Assembly (NCBI GenBank): GCA_018714785.1
Contig: DVMV01000038.1
Span: 1 to 47,629, forward strand
Length of the DNA stretch: 47,629 nucleotides
Direction: 5' to 3'
From: Candidatus Alloenteromonas pullicola
GTDB taxonomy: Bacteria; Bacillota_I; Bacilli_A; RFN20; CAG-826
Shown piece by piece: positions 8,342 through 40,045 of this stretch. The notes beneath the pieces were generated by a model. It ran no database searches. It was not told where the DNA came from and saw only the letters and a list, made by a program, of their open reading frames with translations. The position numbers were made by a program, and so were the translations under genes. Each line of letters begins with the position of its first letter. Position 1 is the first letter of the stretch.

Positions 8342-10199
8342 CGAAGTCACCTCCACCAAGCTGGGTTTCGTAAATTTCCTTATAGACAGGCGAGCTCTGC
8401 ATCAATTCGTCGTTGGTCCCTTTGGCGATTATCTTTCCGTCATCCATCACCAGGATGATGTCGCAGTCCTTAATCGAGAGGACGCGCTGGGCGATGATGA
8501 ATTTGGTGACGTCGGGAATCTCGGTGCGGAAAGCCTCGCGGATGACGGAGTCGGTGTGGGTGTCGACCGCCGAGGTCGAGTCGTCCAAAATCAGGATCTT
8601 TGGGCTCTTGAGCAAGGCCCTGGCGATGCAAAGGCGCTGCTTCTGGCCGCCGGAGACGTTGGTTCCGCCTTCGTCGATCGGCGAATCGTATTTGAGCGGG
8701 AACTTCTCGATGAACTCATCGGCGCAGGCGAGGTGGCAGGCGTGCTTCATCTCCTCCAGCGTCGCGTCCTCCTTGCCCCACCGCAGGTTGCTCGCGATGG
8801 TGCCGGTGAACAACGTGTTCTTCTGCAGCACCACGGCTACCGCGTCGCGGAGGGTGGGAAGGTCGTAGTCGCGGACGTCGATCCCGCCGACCTTAACCGA
8901 TCCCTCGGTAACGTCGTAAAGCCTGGCGATCATTGAGACCAAAGTCGACTTCGAGGAGCCGGTGGCCCCGATGATGCCGACGGTCGCGCCGGAGGGGATA
9001 TGGAGGTCGATGTCGTTTAGAACGTCCTTGGATCCGGAAGCCGAATAGCGGAAGTGGACGTGGTTGAAATCGACCGAGCCGTCCTTGACCTATTTGATGG
9101 CATCGGGCTTAGACACGATGTCAGGCTTCTCTATGACGACCTCGGCGATACGTTCGGCCGAGTTGCGGGCGATGATGATGAGGACGAAAACCATGGAAAC
9201 CATGTTGAGGCTCATCAAGATCTGCATGACATAGGTGAATAGCGAGGTGAGCGAGCCGGTGTTGAAGGCATCGGGAACGTTGCCGTTGGCGATGATCATC
9301 TTCGCGCCGAAGAAGCTGATTATGAGCATGCAGGCGTAGACAGTCAGCTGCATGAGCGGAGAGTTGACGGCCAATATCCTCTCGGCGTGGAGGAAGGTGC
9401 GGTAGATGAAATAGGAAACGCGGCCGAACTTCTCGTTCTCGAACTGCTCGCGGCCGAAGCTCTTTACGACCCTGATGCCGGACAGGTTCTCCTGAACCGA
9501 GGCGTTGAGGTCATCGTAGGCGTTGAACACCTTGACGAAGGTGGGGTGAACCTTGGCGGCGATGAAGATCAGGGCGAACCCAAGGACCGGGATGGCGACC
9601 AAGAACATAAGCGACAGCTGCCAGGAGGTTATGGCGGCCATGACGACCGCGAATATCATCATGAACGGGGCCCTGACGACAGTCCTGACGACGGCTTGGA
9701 TCGAGTTGGTCACGTTGGTGCAGTCGGTGGTTAGCCTGGTGACCAGCGAGGCGGTAGAGAAGCGGTCGATGTTGGAGAAGGAGAATGTCTGGATGTTGTA
9801 ATACATCGCCTGGCGGAGCTTCTTGCCAAACCCCGATGAGGCGATGGCGGCAAAGAAGCCGGCGAAAACGCCGCCGACGCAGCTGGCGATGGCCAACGCG
9901 GCCATGATGCTGCAATACATGATCAGGTTGGGGACGTCGGACTGCGACATCATCCCGGATGCCGGGTCGATGATGTTGACCGCATATTGGGCAACGAAGG
10001 GGATCATGACCTCCCCCACCACCTCGATGGCGACGCAAAGCCACGCCAAATAGACGTATTTCCAATAGCCCTTCATGTAACGGGCCAACGTCTTGACGAT
10101 GTGCACGTTCTTAAGGCGTTTGATCTCTTCCTCGTTCTTCTTCTCGACGGAAGCGATCAGCATCTGCTCCTCTTTGGTCGGAGCGCTTTTCTTTTCCAT
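8331..10199 (-). pseudogene. heterodimeric ABC exporter, degenerate-site subunit, interrupted by an in-frame amber codon
   Basis: One reading frame of 622 positions is cut by TAG at 9092-9090 (codon 370), between the membrane part (SKPDAIK) and the ATPase part (VKDGSVDFNHVHFRY). The frame stays open on both sides and the protein reads as a single exporter across the stop. The ATPase also has a Walker A change: GATGSSKST, with Ser (codon 8954-8952) where the Gly before Lys is nearly invariant. Signature VSGGQ is normal. Walker B is LILDDSTSA (Asp for Glu) and the H-loop His is Gln (AQRVLS), both typical of the degenerate half of heterodimers. Reinitiation at the ATG at 8942 would miss Walker A. 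Start ATG at 10199 has GGAGG 7 bases upstream. Most likely a nonsense mutation; a sequencing error or amber read-through cannot be excluded. Confidence 0.85.
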
Positions 10200-17439: not shown

Positions 17440-19620
17440 TTAGGCTTGGTTGTCCCCGCCTTTGTCGGGCTCGGAGGGCTTTTCCGCCGCTGGCTCGGAA
17501 GCTTCTTTGCCCTCGGCGGCTTTCTCGCCTTTCTCCTCGTCGGAGATGGTCTCGACGCCTTGGGATTGTTCTTCCTTTACCTCGGGATCGTGGACGACTG
17601 GCGGCAGCGTCCCGTTGGCGCAGAGGTACTCGATCTCCTCGGCCGTGATGGTCTCCTTCTCGAGGAGGGTCTCGGCGATGAGGATCACCTTGTCCTTGTG
17701 CTCAAGCAGGACCTGGCGGGCCTTCTCGTGGGCATCCTCTATGATGCGGCGGACCGCCTTGTCGATCTCGAAGGCGATCTGGGTCGAGAAGTTGCGCTGG
17801 GTCGAGGCGTAGTCGCGGCCTAGGAACACCGATCCGGTGTCCCGCTCATACTGGATGGGGCCCAGCTCGGACATGCCGAACTCGGTGACCATCATCCTGG
17901 CGAGCCTGGTGGCTTGCTCGATGTCGTTGCTCGCGCCGGTGGTGACGTCTTGGAAGAATATCTCCTCCGACGTGCGGCCGCCGAGCAGCCCCGTGATGCG
18001 GGCGATGAGCTCGTTCTTGGTCAGCAGGAACCGGTCGTCCTCAGGGGTCATCAATACGTGCCCGCCGGTGTTGCCACGCGGGATGATCGTGATCTTCTGG
18101 ACCTTATCCGAATATGGCAGGTAGATGCCAATGACCGAGTGGCCGGCCTCGTGGTAGGCGACTTCCTTCCGCTCCTTGACGGACATGGCGCGTGAGGATT
18201 TGGCCGGGCCGGAGATGCGGCGGTCGATCGCCTCGTCTATATCGGCCATGTCGATGGCCGGCTTGTTCTCCCTTACCGCGAGGATGGCGGCTTCGTTGAG
18301 GACGTTGTCGATATCGGCTCCGGAGAAGCCGACGGTCCGCTTGGCCAGCGCGGCGAAATCAACGTGCGAATCGATGGTCTTGTTGCGCGCGTGGACCTTG
18401 AATATGGCCTCGCGACCGGCTTTGTCAGGCAAGGATACCGTGATGGTCCGATCGAAGCGCCCGGCACGGCGAAGCGCCGGGTCGAGGACGTCGTCGCGGT
18501 TGGTGGCGGCTATGACCAAGATGCCGGAGTTGGCCTCGAAGCCATCCATCTCGACCAATAGCTGGTTGAGGGTCTGCTCGCGCTCGTCGTTTCCTCCGCC
18601 AAGTCCGGCCCCACGCTGACGGCCGACAGCATCGATTTCATCGATGAATATAAGGCAGGGAGCGGTCTCCTTGGCCCGGCGGAACAGATCGCGGACGCGG
18701 CCGGCGCCGACGCCGACGTACATCTCAACGAAGTCCGAGCCGGAAATGGAATAGAAGGGGACGCCGGCTTCCCCCGCCACCGCTTTGGCGAGCAGGGTCT
18801 TGCCGGTTCCGGGCGGGCCGATAAGGAGGACGCCCTTGGGCAGCCTAGCGCCGAACCTAGAGTATTTATGAGGGTCTTTCAGGTATTCGACGAGCTCGAC
18901 CATCTCGGCCTTCTCCTCGTCGCAGCCCGCCACATCGGAGAAGCGGACTTTGCTGTTGGCCTTCCTGGCTGGGGATTTGTTGAAGCTGAAGGCCGAATTG
19001 TTCATCCCCGAGACCGAGCGGTTCAGCCGGCCGAAGATGAACAAAGCCAAGATGGCGGTTCCGATCAGCAGGATTATGGTCGGCCCCCAGGAGTCCCACC
19101 AAGAGACGGCAAACCCATCGACGACCGAGATGAAGCACATGCTGGGGTCGACGAAGCCGGCGGTTTTCGCCTCATCGATCCTCGCGGTGAACATCGCCTC
19201 GTAATAGGGGTGATATATCATCGTCCCATCATCTAGGTAGATGGAATAGCCCGGGCCTTCGCCGGACCACAGGTTCTCCTCGATCATGACGGTGAAAAGG
19301 ACCGAGCGATTGCTGGTGTTGGCGGCTCTGCCGGTGACGGATACGGCTTTGTATCCCTGGCTCACCTCGATGGCGTAGACGCGGTATTCGAGGGTGTCGT
19401 AGGCATCCGCGGTGTATTTGGAATCCGCCGGGTTGTCCTGATCGACGTTAAGCGAGTACCCGAGGTAGTCGTCAAGCTCGTCGCGGGTCCAGGTCACCGG
19501 CTTGCCCACCGTTTGCGAGACGATAAGCCAAATGAATAGCCCCACGGTCAATGCCATGAGGATATAGGGCACGAATACGGAGAATATACTTCTTCTTTTT
19601 GGAGCGGGTCCGTCGTTCAT
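17440..19620 (-). CDS. ftsH: ATP-dependent zinc metalloprotease FtsH
   Basis: A membrane protease that degrades unassembled or regulatory membrane proteins. At 726 residues it is a little longer than usual. There is one helix near residues 15-35, an outer domain of about 140 residues, and a second helix near 180-200. The AAA+ domain has Walker A GPPGTGKT at 268-275, Walker B LIFIDEID and the second region of homology [18 protein letters not shown]. The zinc site is HEAGH at 490-494, with the third ligand region near [16 protein letters not shown] charged Glu/Lys/Ala-rich tail ends the protein. GGAGG lies six bases before the ATG. It stands downstream of tilS as in Bacillus but has its own promoter. 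The stop is 18 bases from an IS. Confidence 0.97.
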
Positions 19621-31396: not shown

Positions 31397-31657
31397 TTAG
31401 CTAAGGGATGTCAGGTAGATGTCGTATTCGGGGCCGAGTTCCCCGCGTTTGGCTCCGTTTAAGTACACGTCGCCGTAATCGTCGATGTAGCCGACGATCT
31501 TCCCGCCGATTGCTATTTTGCCGTCATGGGTCATCCGCGCAGCTTTCTTGCCGGCGATGTACCACGCCCCGTCGCCATCAGGCAGGCGGTTGATATAACC
31601 CACCTGGGTTCCGTTGAGGTATATGTTCTTGCCATAGCACTCGGTGACTACCATCAT
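31397..31657 (-). CDS. small conserved-looking hypothetical protein
   Basis: I do not recognise the family. The 86-residue product has no signal peptide or membrane helix. It contains three or four short repeats of a beta-like unit, roughly GxxVGYI followed by YLNG (VGYINR, GWYIAGKK-like, KIAIGGKIVGYID, DVYLNGAK). This suggests a small repeated beta structure. Its ATG overlaps the glmU TGA by four bases and GGAAG precedes it, so it is translated with glmU. It ends at a terminator. Function is unknown; coupling to cell-wall precursor synthesis is only suggestive. Confidence 0.7.
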   Translation of the reverse strand: MMVVTECYGKNIYLNGTQVGYINRLPDGDGAWYIAGKKAARMTHDGKIAIGGKIVGYIDDYGDVYLNGAKRGELGPEYDIYLTSLS

Positions 31658-33051
31658 TTCGCTTCCTTCAGCCTCTTGGCTTTCTCGTGAAGGACGTCGG
31701 AGTAGCCTTCCTTGTTGGTCTGCCGTTCCCTGGCGATGGCCATCGCGTGGGCCGGGACGTCCTTGTTGATGGTCGACCCGGCGGCGGTGAAGGCCTGCTC
31801 GCCGATCTTGACCGGGCTTATGATCGTGGTTCCGGATCCGATGAAGGTCCCGTCCCCGATGTTCGAGCTGAACTTGTTGACCCCGTCGTAATTGGCGATG
31901 ATGGTCCCGCAGCCGATGTTGACGTCAGAGCCGATTGAGGCATCGCCTAGATATGATAGGTGGGCGCATTTGCTGCCCTCCCCGAAGCTCACGTTCTTGA
32001 GCTCGTTGAAGTTTCCGATGTGGGCTTTGTCGGCGATGACGGCGTTCTTCCTGGTCCTCAAATAGGGGCCCAGGGTGGTGTTGGAGCCGATGACGGTGTC
32101 GACCAGATGGCTCCACTCGATGATGTTGCCGTTGTTGGCCTTGACCCTCTCTAGATAGGTGCTTGGCCCGATGACGTTGTCGCGGCCTATCGAAGTCCCG
32201 CCGAGTATGTATGTATTGGGGCGGATGACGCAATCCTGGCCGATGGTCGAATCGGGCGAGATATAGGTGGTGTCGGGATCCTCGATGGAAACGCCGGAAA
32301 GCATCCAGGCTTTGTTGATGCGGCGCTGGATTATCTTGGCGGCCACGGAAAGCTGGTAGCGGTCGTTGACGCCCATGGTCTCGTTGACGTCGGCCACGGA
32401 GAAGGTCGATACCTTCTTCCCGTCTCCGACGAACATGGCGATGACGTCGGTGAGGTAATACTCCCCGGCGGCGTTGTTCGGGGTGAGGCGCTTGAGGTCG
32501 CGGAACAGCTCGGCGTTGTTGAAGACGTATACGCCGGCGTTGACCTCATGGATCGCGGCCTCGTCTGGCGTGCAGTCCTTCTGCTCGACTATCCGCTTGA
32601 CGCGCCCGTTTTCCTTAACGATGCGCCCATATCCACGGGGATCGTCGATGACCGAGGTCAGTATGGTCAGGTCGTTGTGGTTGGTCTGATGGCTGGAAAG
32701 CAGGGCCGAGAGGGTCTTGCTGGTCAATAGCGGGGTGTCGCCGCAGCAGATTATCGTCTCGCCCTCCTGCTCCGAAAGCGCCGGGGCCGCCATCATCACG
32801 GCGTGGCCGGTTCCCTTCTGCTCGTTTTGCCAAACCACCTCGGAGTCGCCCTCGACGATGGATTTGGTGGTCTCGCCGCCGAATCCGACGACGGTGACTA
32901 TCTTCTCCATGCCCAAAGGCTTGAGGGCCTCGAGTACGTACTTCACCATCGGCCTTCCCAATATCGGGAAGGAAACCTTTGAGACGTCGGAACGGCCGCT
33001 TTTCATCCTCGTGCCTTTGCCGGCGGCCAATATGATGGCGAATTTGTTCAT
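31654..33051 (-). CDS. glmU: bifunctional UDP-GlcNAc pyrophosphorylase / glucosamine-1-P acetyltransferase
   Basis: Makes UDP-GlcNAc for peptidoglycan. At 465 residues it is full length. The uridyltransferase half starts MNKFAIILAAGKGTRMKS with the GxGTRM loop and has GTGHAVMMAAPA and GDTPLL. From about residue 250 the left-handed beta helix of hexad repeats runs (DNVIGPSTYLE, SHLVDTVIG, DVNIGCGTIIANYDG, FIGSGTTIISPVKIG). GGAGG precedes the ATG. It is followed by a coupled small gene and preceded by ispE. Presence of glmU argues that the organism makes a cell wall. Confidence 0.97.
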   Translation of the reverse strand: MNKFAIILAAGKGTRMKSGRSDVSKVSFPILGRPMVKYVLEALKPLGMEKIVTVVGFGGETTKSIVEGDSEVVWQNEQKGTGHAVMMAAPALSEQEGETIICCGDTPLLTSKTLSALLSSHQTNHNDLTILTSVIDDPRGYGRIVKENGRVKRIVEQKDCTPDEAAIHEVNAGVYVFNNAELFRDLKRLTPNNAAGEYYLTDVIAMFVGDGKKVSTFSVADVNETMGVNDRYQLSVAAKIIQRRINKAWMLSGVSIEDPDTTYISPDSTIGQDCVIRPNTYILGGTSIGRDNVIGPSTYLERVKANNGNIIEWSHLVDTVIGSNTTLGPYLRTRKNAVIADKAHIGNFNELKNVSFGEGSKCAHLSYLGDASIGSDVNIGCGTIIANYDGVNKFSSNIGDGTFIGSGTTIISPVKIGEQAFTAAGSTINKDVPAHAMAIARERQTNKEGYSDVLHEKAKRLKEAK

Positions 33052-37399: not shown

Positions 37400-37999
37400 T
37401 TATTCCTCGTATTCGATGTGGACGGCCCGGTTGGCGCCTTCGCCAAACGACTCGGTCTTGATGTGATCGAATCCGGCGACGGCGTTATGGACGATGCGCC
37501 TTTCGTCGGGGGTCATCGGATCGAGCGAGACCGAGACGTGGGAGCGCTGAACATCGCGGGCGGTGCGCTTGGCAAGGCGGGCGATCCTCTCGTAGCGATC
37601 TTCTTTATAGCCACCAACGTCGAGTACGATTCTGTAACGATGGCGGAACTTGGTCGAGAGGGCGATCTTGGCAACCTCATTGAGGGCCTGGAGGGTCTTG
37701 CCGTTCTTCCCGATGATGATCGGATTGCGCGGGGAATCCAACGTGACCTTGATGACGTCTTCCTCGATGGAGGATTCGGCGGTGGCCTCAACCCCAAGCG
37801 CCCTGAGGGCCTTGACTAAATAGTCCTTTACGTACTCGGCGGCGTCTTCGATGGTGAAGACGGAGATGGTGGCCGACTTCTTGAACAGCCCCTTCTTCTC
37901 CTCCTTGACGGAATAGACGAGCGAAGATTCGCTCACGCCGAGGTCGGCGCAGGCTTCCTTAACGGCATCTTCGATCGTTTTTGCGGTGAATTCCTTCAT
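37400..37999 (-). CDS. khpB: RNA-binding protein KhpB (Jag/EloR)
   Basis: A 199-residue protein in three parts: a Jag-N domain (EFTAKTIEDAVKEACADLG), a KH domain with the GxxG loop IIGKNGKTLQALNEV near 110, and an R3H domain (RRIVHNAVAGFDHIKTESFG) at the end. KhpB partners KhpA and affects cell elongation and division in Bacillota. GGAGCAG precedes the ATG. It follows yidC by two bases, the usual order. Confidence 0.95.
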   Translation of the reverse strand: MKEFTAKTIEDAVKEACADLGVSESSLVYSVKEEKKGLFKKSATISVFTIEDAAEYVKDYLVKALRALGVEATAESSIEEDVIKVTLDSPRNPIIIGKNGKTLQALNEVAKIALSTKFRHRYRIVLDVGGYKEDRYERIARLAKRTARDVQRSHVSVSLDPMTPDERRIVHNAVAGFDHIKTESFGEGANRAVHIEYEE

Positions 38000-38001
38000 T
38001 T

Positions 38002-39708
38002 TTATCTGCTCCTATTGTGCTTTTTCTTGGATTTGGCTATGACCAGTTGCGTAATTCCGGTCTGAGCCATAGAGATAAGGCCGCCTATCAACCAGTAGAT
38101 AGCCATGGCGGACGGCAGGAAGAAGCCCATCACAATGGTGAAGCCCATCATGAATATGCTGATCCATTTCATCTGCTTCTGCTGACTGGTTTGGGCTGGG
38201 TTCTTGCCCATTTTGGACACATTCCTCGACTGATATTTGGCGATGATTCGAGGAAGCATCATAGACATTATCTGAACGCCGGCCATCAAGATGAACAGCA
38301 CGATGGCGGTCCACCAGCCTTCAACGTTGTAATACCAAGAGCCGGTTGTGTTGAACAGGATGGTCGAGATGGTGTCGGAGAGCCTCATGTTGAGGAACTC
38401 GCCGGTCGACAAGGCGGCCGATCCTTGCAAGCCCGACCAAACGCAGATGAAGATCGGGAACTGGATTATAAGCACGAGGATCTGGCGGAAAGGATGTATT
38501 TTGTTCCGCTTGTAAAGAGCCATCTGCTCTTGCCCGAGCCTGGCTTTTTCGGCTTGGTTTGTATTCGAGTTCGGATATTTCGCCTGAATCTTGGCAAGTT
38601 CCGGTTGCAAAGCCTGCATCTTCTGGGTATCCATCGTGGATTTGAAGGATATAAGCATGATGAATCCGCGGACGATCAAAGTAACGAACACCAAAGCCAA
38701 AATCTGGCCGAACCCGGACAGTCCCGGATCCATGGAGAAGGCGAAGGTATCCAGCAACCATGAGACCGGATAAACAAGCAAGCCTTCCAAGAAGCCTTTG
38801 CTCCAGGCATATCCCCAACTCTTCTTGGTGATGGCGACCTCCCAGTCGGAATGGGCGCCATAGTGGCCAAAGAAGCCATCCTGGGTGGCTATGCAGGAGC
38901 GGTTGGCGTTTACCTTGGTGTTGACGGCGTTGCAATAGGCGTTGAAGAAATCGTCGGTCGGAACGTTATCCATCCCCAAATTCGGGTCATCGGAAGCGTA
39001 CAGGATTGCGTTCCACTGCTTCAGATATCCAAATAGGTCGTCGTTTTTGCCGGTAAACTTAACGTACCCGTAATTCCTCAGAATGGAATCGTTGTTGGGC
39101 TCGGAAAGCTTCCCTTGCTTGTCAACCTCGTTCGGGTTTTTGTACGGGTTGATGTCATCTACGGTCAGCCCGGCAATGTAATCCGGGGTAGCTTTGGAGA
39201 AAAGCGCGTTCTCTGGATCGTAGCTGACCAGCGGGCTTTGGACTTCCGAGAGATAGGTGGCGGCGTTTAGGACGAAGTCGTCTATGGCGGCCCAGTACTC
39301 AACCGACGGCATCATATAGCCGGCGGAGGCGGCTTGGTCTATGACGTTTGGCTGAAGCAAAGCTTGAGCTTTGTTGGCGGTGAACGTGAGCTTTCCGTCT
39401 TCGCTCACCTCATAGGGGATGTACTTGTAGACGTTTTGATTGAGGATGGTCCCGTCGTCGTCGACAAAAGCCGGGCCGGCGATGCCCTTCTCCTCTTCGG
39501 AAGTGATGAGTTTGGCGGTGTTCTCGTTGGTCTTAAGCTCTTCGTAATCGGCCTTATCGACGTATAAAGTGACGCCTTGCTCATAAGGATAGGCCATATG
39601 CGCCTTATCCTCGTTGTCGCAGAAATTAGCTGTGCAGCTCGTAAGCAAAACACCGCCTAAGAATATGGCGGCGATGCCGAGCGCTTTTATCTTAGTTTTG
39701 TTTTTCAA
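38002..39708 (-). CDS. yidC: membrane protein insertase YidC/OxaA, lipoprotein form with large extracytoplasmic domain
   Basis: Inserts proteins into the membrane alone or with Sec. The N-terminus is a lipoprotein signal (AAIFLGGVLLTSC, lipid Cys 25). Some 280 residues of soluble outer domain follow (26 to about 304), much longer than in Bacillus SpoIIIJ. The insertase core of five helices spans 305-568, with the groove Arg at 347 (LIVRGF) and a conserved hydrophilic hairpin before QILVLIIQFPIFICVW. A basic tail ends the protein. The start is TTG (AAGG ten bases upstream) and overlaps rnpA by 17 bases. The outer domain was not recognised. Confidence 0.94.
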   Translation of the reverse strand: MKNKTKIKALGIAAIFLGGVLLTSCTANFCDNEDKAHMAYPYEQGVTLYVDKADYEELKTNENTAKLITSEEEKGIAGPAFVDDDGTILNQNVYKYIPYEVSEDGKLTFTANKAQALLQPNVIDQAASAGYMMPSVEYWAAIDDFVLNAATYLSEVQSPLVSYDPENALFSKATPDYIAGLTVDDINPYKNPNEVDKQGKLSEPNNDSILRNYGYVKFTGKNDDLFGYLKQWNAILYASDDPNLGMDNVPTDDFFNAYCNAVNTKVNANRSCIATQDGFFGHYGAHSDWEVAITKKSWGYAWSKGFLEGLLVYPVSWLLDTFAFSMDPGLSGFGQILALVFVTLIVRGFIMLISFKSTMDTQKMQALQPELAKIQAKYPNSNTNQAEKARLGQEQMALYKRNKIHPFRQILVLIIQFPIFICVWSGLQGSAALSTGEFLNMRLSDTISTILFNTTGSWYYNVEGWWTAIVLFILMAGVQIMSMMLPRIIAKYQSRNVSKMGKNPAQTSQQKQMKWISIFMMGFTIVMGFFLPSAMAIYWLIGGLISMAQTGITQLVIAKSKKKHNRSR

Positions 39709-40045
39709 TTGAGCTTTCCCTTATTTGTTCAAGTGAGCGGCGAAGCTCATCCTGGTTGGCGGCAAACTCATCTATTTTGTAAGACGGTTTGATCGCGATG
39801 ATGATATTGAAGGGCTTGGTGAAGTCGAAGTCGGATGCAAGCATCGCCCTAACTTGGCGCTTCTGCTTGACCCGCATTACGGCTATGCCGTTCGCTTTCC
39901 CCACCGCAATGCCAACGCGGGAATAGTTTTGCTCAGGCGATGAGGGTTCGTAATAAACGTTGAAGTGGCTTGACTTAATCCGCTTTCCGTTGCGGATTAT
40001 GCGATCGAACTCTCGGTGGTCTTTAACGCGAAACGGCCTTTTCAT
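39692..40045 (-). CDS. rnpA: ribonuclease P protein component
   Basis: Binds the RNase P RNA that trims tRNA 5' ends. 117 basic residues, starting MKRPFRVKDHREFDRIIRNG and carrying the RNR-like core VGIAVGKANGIAVMRVKQKR. It sits five bases after rpmH and overlaps the yidC start by 17 bases. The ATG has only a weak ribosome site, so translation is probably coupled to rpmH. Confidence 0.95.
   Translation of the reverse strand: MKRPFRVKDHREFDRIIRNGKRIKSSHFNVYYEPSSPEQNYSRVGIAVGKANGIAVMRVKQKRQVRAMLASDFDFTKPFNIIIAIKPSYKIDEFAANQDELRRSLEQIRESSIEKQN

Follow-up and report, generated by a model that had tools for sequence, protein, structure and literature searches.

YidC of Bacillota is usually cited as a minimal insertase without a periplasmic domain. 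In Candidatus Alloenteromonas pullicola (order RFN20, family CAG-826), the yidC gene encodes a protein in which a large extracytoplasmic part stands between a lipobox and the insertase core, raising the question of what this part is, where it came from and what it could add to the insertase. Here we address this question by comparing the gene with its relatives. The gene lies in a window of 47,629 nucleotides, which is the whole stretch of DNA analysed (contig DVMV01000038.1 of assembly GCA_018714785.1). Families of relatives carry f numbers, f1 being the window's own and f2 its sister family; L and G numbers denote loci and genomes.

The outer domain leaves knowledge of the YidC insertase itself unchanged. 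Its interest lies elsewhere: one order appears to have built its own YidC outer domain on a common frame, with sizes of 84 to about 330 residues. This natural size series lets one ask what YidC gains from an outer domain, and it also bears on whether SecDF docking has been invented anew and whether cysteines of exported proteins can form pairs in the absence of known oxidases.

The yidC gene and its insertase core

The open reading frame at window positions 38002-39708 (minus strand) is yidC, 568 amino acids long with a TTG start codon. The features of the locus are the following:

37400..37999, minus strand: jag-type gene downstream of yidC (homologues lie downstream of yidC in relatives)
38002..39708, minus strand: yidC gene, 568 aa, TTG start (open reading frame, lipobox, PF02096)
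38050..38700, minus strand: insertase core, PF02096, residues 337-553 (E 1.3e-29; alignment to YidC2)
38803..39036, minus strand: putative outer-domain C-cap (about residues 225-302), with K.W.yAW as its last motif ahead of the core (L177 match, probability 87%)
38893..38895, minus strand: codon of Cys272, the C-side frame cysteine (67/69 rows)
39037..39573, minus strand: expanded middle part, residues about 46-224, boundary approximate (absent or different in small forms)
39574..39633, minus strand: putative outer-domain N-cap, residues 26-45 (TANFCDNEDKAHMAYPYEQG), limits approximate (conserved in the family)
39619..39621, minus strand: codon of Cys30, the N-side frame cysteine (67/69 rows)
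39634..39708, minus strand: signal peptide and lipobox LTSC, predicted lipid cysteine at residue 25 (sequence; Cys25 in 69/69 rows)
39692..40045, minus strand: rnpA, with a 17-base overlap at the yidC start (homologues lie upstream of yidC in relatives)
39717..39722, minus strand: AAGGGA, resembling a ribosome-binding site (putative role), ending 8 bases upstream of the TTG

The boundary of the middle part follows the hit of L177 on the profile, which covers model positions 150-224. The name jag for the downstream gene is presumed from the locus order.

The TTG is a credible start judging by its surroundings, because AAGGGA lies 8 bases upstream and the open frame extends for four more codons at most (572 aa in total). 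In frame, the following start codons are TTG21, which would keep four residues ahead of the lipid cysteine, and ATG38, which removes the lipobox. The short-form start downstream that the original prediction had named as a refutation would therefore cost YidC its signal peptide or its lipobox. The N-terminus runs from Lys-rich residues through a hydrophobic stretch to LTSC, whose Cys25 is a cysteine in all 69 aligned relatives and is the likely site of lipidation. Flanked by rnpA upstream and jag downstream, as are 32/32 same-family yidC loci examined (among them L002-L004, which probably represent the genes of L006-L008 a second time), the window locus is a standard rnpA-yidC-jag locus.

PF02096 matches the window protein over residues 337-553 with 103.7 bits against a curated cut-off of 35 (E 1.3e-29) and matches the genome at this one place. 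The best solved relatives are the Bacillus YidC2 structures 3wo6 and 3wo7, to which the alignment begins at residue 303 (E 1.3e-17); residues 25-302, 278 residues including the lipid cysteine, therefore precede the core. This confirms the earlier description of a YidC with a lipobox and about 280 extra extracytoplasmic residues, placed at 38790-39708, an interval running from the signal peptide across the extra domain into the start of the core region. The arginine in the first core helix of YidC has a role in the hydrophilic groove; its counterpart in the window protein is R347, which the alignment pairs with the Arg of IIR/IVR in solved Bacillus YidC2 and which shows no variation among 36 rows. 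The best NCBIfam matches of the core are to PRK02201-type YidC models (NF002566-NF002570, which we take to be mycoplasma-type), with NF002567 at 7.6e-44, but the protein stays far under the cut-off of that model (150 of 452 bits) and aligns only from residue 293 onward. By its sequence the window protein would be a genuine YidC/Oxa1/Alb3-type insertase whose core does the usual work, and this is the starting point of a whole explanation, set out below, to which we give a little less than an even chance.

The protein resembles the lipoprotein-type YidC of Bacillota (SpoIIIJ, YidC2) in its lipobox with an invariant cysteine, its core and its locus, but it has the 278 residues where they have a short linker; SpoIIIJ is described (PMC4136701) as being without a large periplasmic region. 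With Gram-negative YidC carrying P1 (PF14849) it shares a large extracytoplasmic domain between N-terminal anchor and core, whereas its predicted anchor is a lipid rather than TM1, its domain has no sequence relation to P1 that we could find, and related forms go down to 84 residues.

The cysteine frame and its length series

Two cysteines frame the outer domain. Among 69 aligned domains, Cys30 is a cysteine in 67, Cys272 in 67 and both in 65. The arrangement extends to an order-level set of eight families (f1, f2, f24-f29), where 81/85 proteins have one cysteine 4-12 residues after the lipid cysteine and another 23-39 residues before the core, L065 being counted by virtue of a shifted cysteine at +12; in the window protein they stand at +5 and at 31 before the core. 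Both sets leave out L001-L004 (copies), L029 (interrupted frame) and L103 (divergent, no lipobox found); L156, whose N-terminal part is masked, was also left out. Five proteins are without the aligned pair: L158 alone lacks both aligned cysteines, and the other four have lost one only. These one-cysteine losses (G091, G061, G078, G008) are all four sampled readable members of one genus. Within that genus two proteins are without Cys30 and two without Cys272 (L065, L075, L088, L089).

The distance between the frame cysteines varies more than fivefold across the order, from 54 to 298 residues. The smallest domains, of 84-97 residues, are found in f24 and f25, and the largest in the order has about 330. 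With hhalign, the short forms match the ends of the window domain: the 84-residue form L177 at model positions 150-224 (probability 87%), and at the N-end L168 at positions 1-28 (95%), L182 at 1-15 (75%) and L181 at 1-17 (64%). Because of these matches, the window domain looks like a small cysteine-framed element, 84 residues at its minimum, that has been enlarged by a long insertion. The middle part in f29 is also long and has no relation to that of the window detectable by hhalign (0.4%, 5.9%), which suggests a second, separate expansion.

The position and conservation of Cys30 and Cys272 point to a putative disulfide between them. Single-cysteine losses in four of the five exceptions argue against such a bond, which predicts that both would be lost together, and the failure to find VKOR or DsbB in the genomes of relatives (0/41 for each) also counts against it. 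DsbD/CcdA was detected in 2/41 genomes, one of them over the cut-off. The two cysteines may instead bind a metal together or pack as a pair of thiols.

Distribution and origin of the outer domain

The whole protein was matched in 139/146 sampled genomes of the family, some of the matches being fragments or weak (G068, G039, G001), a spread that goes beyond chance. A profile of the domain, run on an even sample of 296 Bacilli genomes, matched 32/33 genomes of f1 and 6/6 of f2, that is 38/39, and gave weak matches (E 4.5e-4 to 3.0e-3) in 4/257 other Bacilli genomes. A lineage-specific module, as originally suggested, is what this distribution describes. In 38/38 genomes with a domain match, the match lies at the yidC locus, within YidC, and the window's own genome has one copy. 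Median identity to the window is 33% for the domain against 54% for the core, and the domain is below the core in 68/68 rows; the domain is thus kept across the family while diverging faster than the core. At one f1 locus (L029, G083) the yidC frame is interrupted, with two stops in the match that reflect either a genuine break or an assembly error, and both core and domain are still recognisable.

To place these forms relative to each other we used a tree of the core (91 rows including 24/68 f1 rows; quick short search, midpoint-rooted). The order forms one clade (SH-aLRT 98), in which f1, f2 and f26 group together (99) next to a sister clade of f24, f25, f27, f28 and f29 (88). N-terminal parts are short in f9, f14 and f19, the families adjoining the order on its side of the midpoint root. 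These clades and their short neighbours favour a single origin of the cysteine frame, probably in the ancestor of the order; the large related domain probably arose at the base of f1, f2 and f26. On these sequence comparisons, what the window protein carries is one size form of a cysteine-framed element found throughout the order.

Long N-terminal parts are also found outside the order. YidC of f6, f10 and f20 likewise has a lipobox followed by about 170-240 residues, but the parts in f6 and f10 (173-231 residues) are unrelated to that of the window (hhalign 0.2% and 0.1%). The cysteine pair is absent from f10 (0/12) and f20 (0/1), while in f6 three of seven proteins have a pair of their own, three have neither cysteine and one has a cysteine on one side. 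In L106, L107 and L111 of f6, the pair lies in this unrelated N-terminal part as CSC, following the lipobox, and VCAF, preceding the core. The statement that Bacillota YidC is commonly short therefore needs widening, since an extended N-terminal part is no rarity in this section of the Bacilli.

Possible roles of the outer domain

Searches for known families place the domain in none. Pfam gave no match of note to window residues 25-302, and with 64 aligned domains (the window's family and one f2 member; in alignment A2 the first row covers residues 25-277 only and the second row is the full domain) each Pfam match at E<=1 fell in a single member, the best at E 0.0012 among the 25 of 29 families listed. 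NCBIfam likewise matched single members of the 64 only (best 0.0033), and a profile of the 64 domains found only four matches among PDB sequences, at E 0.2-0.41. We rejected the PDB matches and the single Pfam matches (down to 0.0012, in 1/64 members) as chance. AlphaFold, working from four sequences about 70% identical (the window and L002-L004), gave a mean pLDDT of 35.6 both for the full protein and for residues 26-305, and Chou-Fasman averages for the domain give a mixed secondary-structure estimate. No paper on this outer domain was found in a literature search that mostly did not extend to subscription papers and preprints. As far as sequence families go, the outer domain is an orphan with no known family, carried on a known insertase.

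Our preferred reading, which we hold tentatively, is a YidC with an order-specific accessory domain for docking or chaperoning at the translocon exit, like P1 in its working and with no claim of kinship. The original prediction likewise named a chaperone, which is a possible role. At the foot of the domain the frame cysteines would be linked or packed against each other, so that the domain would stand on the membrane as a closed loop able to grow by insertion. Least certain are two further steps drawn by analogy: the domain could be placed where chains leave the Sec/YidC machinery and dock to other parts of it, SecDF first, and it could hold emerging extracytoplasmic chain segments as Gram-negative P1 may do. 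This P1-like working is proposed because of the place of the domain and a length trend shared with SecDF. According to PMC7618853, E. coli P1 contacts SecD/SecF and has a cleft that may bind unfolded chains. The same paper reports that P1 is not essential for SecYEG-YidC function in E. coli and that large parts of it are dispensable; therefore even a P1-like role may be minor.

The genome's own SecDF (L189, G000:C4:23500-28000) is a single fused chain of about 956 aa; its PF02355 match is weak (E 8.3e-9), and its outer loops, predicted from hydropathy, have about 320 and 182 residues. The corresponding loops have 252 and 141 residues in G422 (f24) and 247 and 141 in G431 (f29), and PF02355 was detected in 17/25 genomes of the genus (E<=0.001). 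SecDF is a known partner of YidC, and the length of the YidC domain correlates with the summed SecDF loops (Spearman 0.83 for 15 genomes and 0.79 for the means of seven families), a figure that ignores kinship and uses 15/20 loci, six of the 15 genomes belonging to one genus. Left out of the correlation were G415 and G416 (YidC sequence not retrieved), G430 (no YidC match), G428 (YidC masked) and G044 (first loop unclear). A general lengthening of exported parts would explain this correlation equally. FtsH in the window (17440-19620, minus strand, 726 aa) also looks lengthened: its family match starts at residue 175 against model position 107, which would make the outer, N-terminal part some 70 residues longer than in the model. 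At 9090-10199 (minus strand) the window also holds a 369-aa open reading frame that matches only the membrane part of MsbA-type ABC exporters, with no ATPase part in the frame.

The strongest rival to an accessory domain with a role at the translocon exit is that the expansion is mostly neutral or structural, a short cysteine-framed linker tolerating long insertions under relaxed constraint with no specific activity. The wide range of spacing between the cysteines, the low identity, the unrelated long middle part of f29 and the unrelated N-terminal parts of other families all speak for it; we nevertheless consider it rather unlikely, as the f1 middle part keeps the motifs Ps..y....D..vL and yGy.KF and the profile match reaches across f1, f2 and f26, both of which need selection. 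Descent from P1 itself, diverged beyond sequence recognition, is clearly less probable than that, even though the domain occupies the same position in the chain, between N-terminal anchor and core, and falls in a similar size class. The original prediction saw no clear similarity to P1, and at sequence level this holds: PF14849 is absent from the window protein at E<=10 and from the 25 of 29 Pfam families listed for the 64 members at E<=1, and E. coli P1 reaches only 0.1% in hhalign and -0.5 bits in hmmsearch, a comparison of one sequence with the profile that loses sensitivity at long distance. Single f2 (L158, L160, L172) and f26 (L159, L183) domains from outside the profile score 99.4-99.7% in hhalign, although these controls are much closer kin of the profile than P1 is. 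The P1 fold is a beta-supersandwich, and forms of 84-97 residues are unsuited to an intact fold of this kind; the domain is, moreover, limited to one order. A convergent answer to P1 is a more speculative thought, and we consider it unlikely. Here a cysteine-stapled loop would have served as an insertion platform, been expanded at least twice with unrelated sequences (in f1, f2 and f26, and in f29) and coevolved with enlarged SecDF loops into a translocon exit chamber peculiar to this lineage, in cells that had lost their wall; the staple may be redox-dependent, because no known thiol-oxidation enzyme was found.

Two further rivals turn on the cell envelope. PF00905 transpeptidases were found in 0/25 genomes of the genus and 0/33 of f1, which agrees with the published prediction (PMC10868615) that some RFN20 families (CAG-288, CAG-826) are peptidoglycan-deficient and others walled. 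The window's group of Bacilli thus appears to be without a cell wall. Ten of 14 control genomes were positive for PF00905, as were 3/6 f2 genomes with the domain (G226, G294, G407). The wall-interaction module offered in the original prediction is not borne out, since the domain is kept where PF00905 is missing; it occurs on both the walled and the wall-less side and is therefore unlikely to be a wall-binding module. A peptidoglycan-interaction module, for which the three f2 genomes could be cited, is highly improbable given that PF00905 was not found in genus or family and that no known wall-binding domain stands among the Pfam families listed for the 64 members. A surface or host-facing module unrelated to translocation would suit a wall-less cell, its outer membrane face presumably exposed, and the fast divergence of the domain; the fusion to the single-copy insertase in every genome with a domain match and the presence of the domain in f2 members with PF00905 weigh against it, and we regard it as unlikely. 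We rejected the idea that loss of the wall led to long N-terminal parts in YidC: 7/7 compared f6 genomes have PF00905 yet long parts, whereas the parts are short in the f13 and f15 members examined and the 133 genomes with PF00905 include none from these two families. Though PF00905 was not found in the genome, GlmU is present in the window at 31654-33051 (minus strand).
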